In this document: positions 1 through 210 of the stretch, piece after piece | How the letters are laid out: each line of letters opens with the position of its first letter | Position numbering within the stretch: the stretch's first letter is position 1 | Assembly: GCA_018714485.1 (NCBI GenBank) | Contig: DVNJ01000005.1 | Span: 1 to 62,785, forward strand | Length of the DNA stretch: 62,785 bases | Source of the DNA: Candidatus Caccalectryoclostridium excrementigallinarum | Lineage (GTDB): Bacteria > Bacillota > Clostridia > Christensenellales > UBA3700 | Reading direction: 5' to 3' | Program-made: the position numbers and the translations under genes | The notes under the pieces: model-generated | Databases searched by the model: none | Told to the model about the DNA's origin: nothing | Seen by the model: only the letters and a program-made list of their open reading frames with translations

Positions 1-210
1 GCCGGAGTTGCTAGTAATCCCGAATCAGAACGTCGGGGTGAATGCGTTCTCGGGTCTTGTACACACCGCCCGTCAAGCCATGGGAGTCGGGAGTACCCAA
101 AGTCGGTGAGCTAACCGCAAGGAGGCAGCCGCCTAAGGTAAGACCGATGACTGGGGTTAAGTCGTAACAAGGTAGCCGTATCGGAAGGTGCGGCTGGATC
201 ACCTACTTTT
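1..210 (+). rRNA. rrs: 16S rRNA, 3' end only (partial)
   Basis: The sequence holds the conserved 3' part of bacterial 16S: the GTACACACCGCCCGTCA universal primer site (59-75), the GTAACAAGGTAGCCGTA segment (164-180) and the helix 45 region ending GGCTGGATCACC (192-203). The 5' part lies outside the window. The end is unusual: the anti-Shine-Dalgarno reads CCTACTTTT from 202, with A at 205 where C is expected (E. coli C1538). The following AAGGAG (211-216) still complements the usual CTCCTT, so the change looks like a point substitution or an error. No 23S, 5S or tRNA gene follows. Confidence 0.97.

Follow-up and report, generated by a model that had tools for sequence, protein, structure and literature searches.

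The 16S fragment and its flank

The stretch of DNA analysed here (62,785 nucleotides, referred to as the window) begins inside a bacterial 16S rRNA gene, of which it contains the 3' end, and starts at base 1 of contig C32 of the source genome (G000), a draft assembly of 33 contigs and 1.43 Mb that is about 96% complete. Since the contig ends at this point, 209 nt of the 16S gene are assembled and no more (Table 1).

Table 1. Features at the 5' end of the window.
Feature	Position	Strand	Basis
3' end of bacterial 16S rRNA gene, cut at base 1 by the contig end	1..209	+	cmscan RF00177, 202 bits, model 1325-1533, 5' truncated
Anti-Shine-Dalgarno core, CCTAC (canonical CCTCC)	202..206	+	sequence, cmscan alignment
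A at the E. coli C1538 position; no other invariant column carries a private change; most likely an error of the consensus or a minor variant	205..205	+	
Precursor hairpin of relatives, UCCU/AGGA around UUUA in L002	204..215	+	folds of window, L002, L003
16S trailer hairpin GTAGC-GCAA-GCTAC, also in relatives, loop varies	217..230	+	alignment, folds

The letters at 196-209 read GGATCACCTACTTT, and in the alignment to RF00177 A205 faces the consensus C of ...GAUcACCUCCUUu. Counting from A75, taken as A1408, and then along the tail GGAUCACCUCC gives E. coli position 1538 for this base; the preliminary description, which had placed an A at C1538 and read the anti-Shine-Dalgarno (aSD) core as CCTAC for CCTCC, is borne out by both the sequence and the cmscan alignment, and its numbering is right. 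Among 99 columns that are invariant in the other 16S sequences of a 44-sequence alignment, from which false 16S matches such as L017 and L039 were excluded, the fragment departs from the rest at position 205 alone. The fragment also contains a plausible compensated pair, A1409-U1491 (window A76, T158); U1491 is common to the genus-mates G001 and G003, and elsewhere in the family 1409/1491 are C and G. The E. coli C1409-G1491 pair of helix 44 (A-U here) lies within the aminoglycoside-binding site, so intrinsic sensitivity may differ.

The flank of the 16S gene is clean and syntenic with genus-mates, two of which, aligned with the window, share its trailer, TTTTAAGGAGTAGC, after which come conserved hairpins. 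The conserved trailer and the U1491 common to G001 and G003 indicate that the fragment belongs to this genus and is no stray piece from another species. The AAGGAG that had been described downstream is indeed present at 211-216 and conserved across the family. A205 faces G214, which is unchanged, and the predicted fold of the window loses the precursor hairpin that relatives form across the 16S 3' end. Further downstream, the intergenic regions 433-530 and 569-764 carry near-identical repeated segments (acaatacggcaagtattgcctgcg; cgctcgccttgttcaaacaaaaattctgctgcggcagagcatatccccgccgccca), and a segment resembling the first of these repeats also follows the 16S gene in G001.

No other 16S 3' end was found in the G000 assembly at up to one mismatch, in a 33-contig draft where copies may be collapsed or missing. 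The remainder of the 16S gene is likewise absent from the assembly, in which a same-family 16S query matches C32:4-208 only. These absences were judged by patterns and DNA queries; an Rfam 16S search, blind even to the known fragment, was left out. Each family member having this region holds exactly one 16S 3' end, and a query for relatives of the locus starting from ORF 1165 returned none. The 16S and 23S genes look unlinked, as the 62 kb following the 16S in the window contain no 23S. On contig C11 of G000 (L028 1-1690 and 2013-2172; L171, L172), tRNA-Ile and tRNA-Ala precede the 23S with no 16S in about 45 kb, and G036 carries on its contig C7 a solitary 16S (L170 9314-10821) with no 23S within about 9 kb on either side.

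Distribution of the variant among relatives and across GTDB

The core reads CCTCC in the three genus-mates holding this region (G001, G003 and G005; 3/3), in 13/13 other family matches and, in an order sample of 396 genomes, in 108/109 among the matches listed, the sole exception being the window itself. Among the species with matches in the genus, the family and the order sample, none but the window's own carries A at 205; genomes holding a 16S 3' end made up about 18-48% of the samples compared. Genus, family and order thus confirm the earlier suggestion that the ancestral state was CCTCC, while the proposed check of relatives for an A at this position returned CCTCC in every match.

A scan of about 85,000 GTDB species for bases other than C at the 1538 position, within conserved context, gave two places. 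One of them, L017, was rejected as a 16S gene, there being no 16S sequence around the match. The other, L016, is a full-length 16S gene in the lake-sediment MAG LacPavin_0920_SED3_MAG_51_16 (JAPKYS010000010.1, site 4885-4905) and the only other true CCTAC 16S found in those species. It was chosen for that change and is otherwise free of private changes across 646 invariant columns; the first-listed relative of the MAG, G047, has CCTCC. Since L016 carries the identical change and is otherwise intact, the C-to-A change may sometimes be real or a recurrent artefact. A quasipalindrome correction (CTACT facing AGTAG, 215-219) was considered as the origin of A205, and would not be general, because L016 has no AGTAG at that place. 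A private change at another conserved position, GGCTAGATCACC, was seen in one of the four 16S 3' ends of G549 (C11:85090-85110).

Shine-Dalgarno usage and short-leader promoters

Shine-Dalgarno (SD) motifs were counted in 586 kb of the genome, with genes picked by hexamer coding score and in-gene positions serving as controls. GGAGG/AGGAG precedes 196/480 genes (40.8%) vs 12/456 controls (2.6%; p 8e-52), whereas GTAGG/AGTAG, the complements of CCUAC, precede 3/480 genes (0.6%) vs 0 controls (p 0.25), which is no enrichment. The CCTCC genus-mates are alike, with GGAGG/AGGAG at 34.2% and GTAGG/AGTAG at 1.0%. Hence, the statement that many genes here have GGAGG sites holds overwhelmingly genome-wide, although within the window itself the signal is weakly visible (GGAGG-N4-9-ATG, 11 vs 8.1 expected). 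Predicted duplex energies, obtained with an earlier ORF set in which opposite-strand shadow ORFs (e.g., 1075-2481 over 1165-2508) diluted the SD signal, were -4.18 kcal/mol for upstream regions vs -3.08 for controls with CACCUCCUUU, and hardly better than controls with CACCUACUUU (-2.52 vs -2.21 kcal/mol). The canonical enrichment and the duplex energies together indicate that the lineage has kept genes read by CCUCC ribosomes.

SD usage is also canonical in the genome of L016 (18.9% vs 2.8%). A slight excess of GTAGG seen in G046 (3.3% vs 0.5%) was rejected as adaptation, because it shrank with more sequence to 2.1% vs 0.8% (p 0.12) and G047, a CCTCC relative of G046, is similar (2.9% vs 1.2%).

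TANAAT boxes ending 5-9 nt before the start were found for 14/433 genes here, 10/142 in G001 and 4/156 in G003; in both of these CCTCC genus-mates the distance peaks at 6 nt. Since the boxes cluster at this distance, short-leader or leaderless transcripts are plausible in the genus, judging from promoter-like sequence. The link that had been drawn between A205 and five apparently leaderless genes fails, as the boxes occur at similar or higher frequency in genus-mates with CCTCC.

Interpretation of A205

Given these results, we consider that A205 is probably a consensus error, or a base from a minority strain, in a draft genome, and that the working ribosomes of this organism most likely lack it. 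A single wrong base, or one contributed by a minority strain or read population, would have come into the consensus where the assembly reaches the 16S gene and breaks off; the real 16S tail would be CCUCC and would pair normally with GGAGG-type sites. This is the simplest reading because the base is isolated, unshared and located in a gene truncated by the end of its contig, and the sequences with which it interacts show no matching change, as expected of a consensus error or minor variant. Several observations count against an error: the rest of the 16S fragment is clean, L016 carries the identical change, and reads joining 205 to the trailer must have existed, since 205 is 5 bases from this unique sequence. 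The same spanning reads make contamination by the 16S of another species unlikely. Of the three options offered in the preliminary description (specialised ribosomes, a decaying copy or a sequencing error), the last fares best in view of the base itself, the contig end, the CCTCC of relatives, the SD usage and the unchanged hairpin partner, and we infer that the original reads would show C at 205.

A real and recent C1538A change is possible but clearly the less probable account. It would lie in a single copy among several 16S genes that the assembly has collapsed, or in a fraction of the strains present, and would be tolerated since CCTCC persists in the other copies or cells. The clean flank syntenic with genus-mates and the intact remainder of the fragment fit such a change, single-copy private changes do occur (e.g., the one of four matches in G549), and differing 16S sequence classes were reported in about 300 organisms (Amin et al., 2018, PMC6107228). 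However, the 96% complete assembly holds no second 16S 3' end, the family members with this region have one each, and in E. coli C1538A is dominant negative (++) and cannot sustain a strain that lacks chromosomal rrn operons (systematic study, PMC8710568). We regard a decaying 16S pseudogene, with intact copies elsewhere, as very unlikely: a universally conserved site is changed, as could happen in such a copy, but decay should leave several changes and one is seen. Nothing has changed at the other 98 of the 99 invariant columns, and conservation with genus-mates extends through the trailer and the hairpins downstream, so the proposal of a decaying copy finds no support in the 16S itself.

It is still less probable that the base marks a functional CCUAC ribosome recognising GUAGG-type sites or favouring leaderless mRNAs. 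Apart from A205 itself, such a ribosome would be in keeping with the short-leader promoter signals of the genus, yet those signals are also present in the CCTCC genus-mates, the complementary motifs are not enriched while the canonical ones abound, and no relative with a match has the variant. Moreover, a survey of aSD variants found none matched by a variant SD, three AAAA motifs having been set aside (PMC6107228). The specialised ribosomes suggested earlier are not supported: neither an SD shift nor conservation in the clade was seen, and no second copy was found in a draft where copies may be collapsed or missing. Equally improbable would be a CCUAC 16S expressed beside an unseen CCUCC copy, which would yield minority ribosomes with weaker GGAGG pairing that perform relatively better on SD-poor or short-leader mRNAs. 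Should the variant nonetheless prove real and be expressed, nature would offer a counterpart of the E. coli dominant-negative mutation and a test case for specialised ribosomes. The probable consensus error or minority base carries a caution of its own, namely that a one-base oddity in the rRNA tail of a draft genome calls for comparison with SD usage in that genome before biological conclusions are drawn from it.

Comparison with known anti-Shine-Dalgarno variants

In the survey of Amin et al. (2018, PMC6107228), 128 organisms were without the consensus aSD, and almost all of them were without SD motifs as well; an altered aSD beside intact SD motifs was attributed to recent loss or to sequence error. 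An evolved alteration or loss of the aSD would be expected to be common to related species and to go with loss of SD motifs or a matching change in them. The window variant shows neither, and on our analysis it falls in the class of recent loss or error. The Alteromonas case of two 16S tail classes (PMC6107228) resembles the window in having a 16S gene with a non-canonical aSD, but there seven taxids each have the variant in two genes or more, whereas here it is known from one copy in one assembly and has no counterpart in the other species compared from the genus, the family or the order sample. The UCUCA aSD of Flavobacteriales, as outlined in PMC8710568 (citing Jha et al., 2021), is also an altered aSD core; according to that outline it is clade-wide, co-varies with the SD of rpsU and belongs to a lineage that rarely uses SD, while the window variant is private and occurs in an SD-rich genome.

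The E. coli mutants C1538A and C1538U (PMC8710568) affect the same rRNA position, the former with the same base as in the window; they are engineered and harmful, whereas the window variant is known from sequence alone. In two cases described in PMC6107228, Streptococcus parasanguinis and Mesorhizobium huakuii 7653R, a single base in the aSD core or next to it is changed while, as in the window, AGGAG remains enriched upstream of genes, and in S. parasanguinis the very same base is altered, but to T (GATCACCTTCTTT). Both are named taxa in public records, unlike the cut gene at the end of a draft contig described here. Finally, the lake-sediment L016 shares with the window its CCTAC tail (CCTACTTT), AAGGAG downstream, canonical SD usage and a CCTCC relative (G047), and differs in being a full-length 16S gene inside a 158 kb contig of a different lineage.
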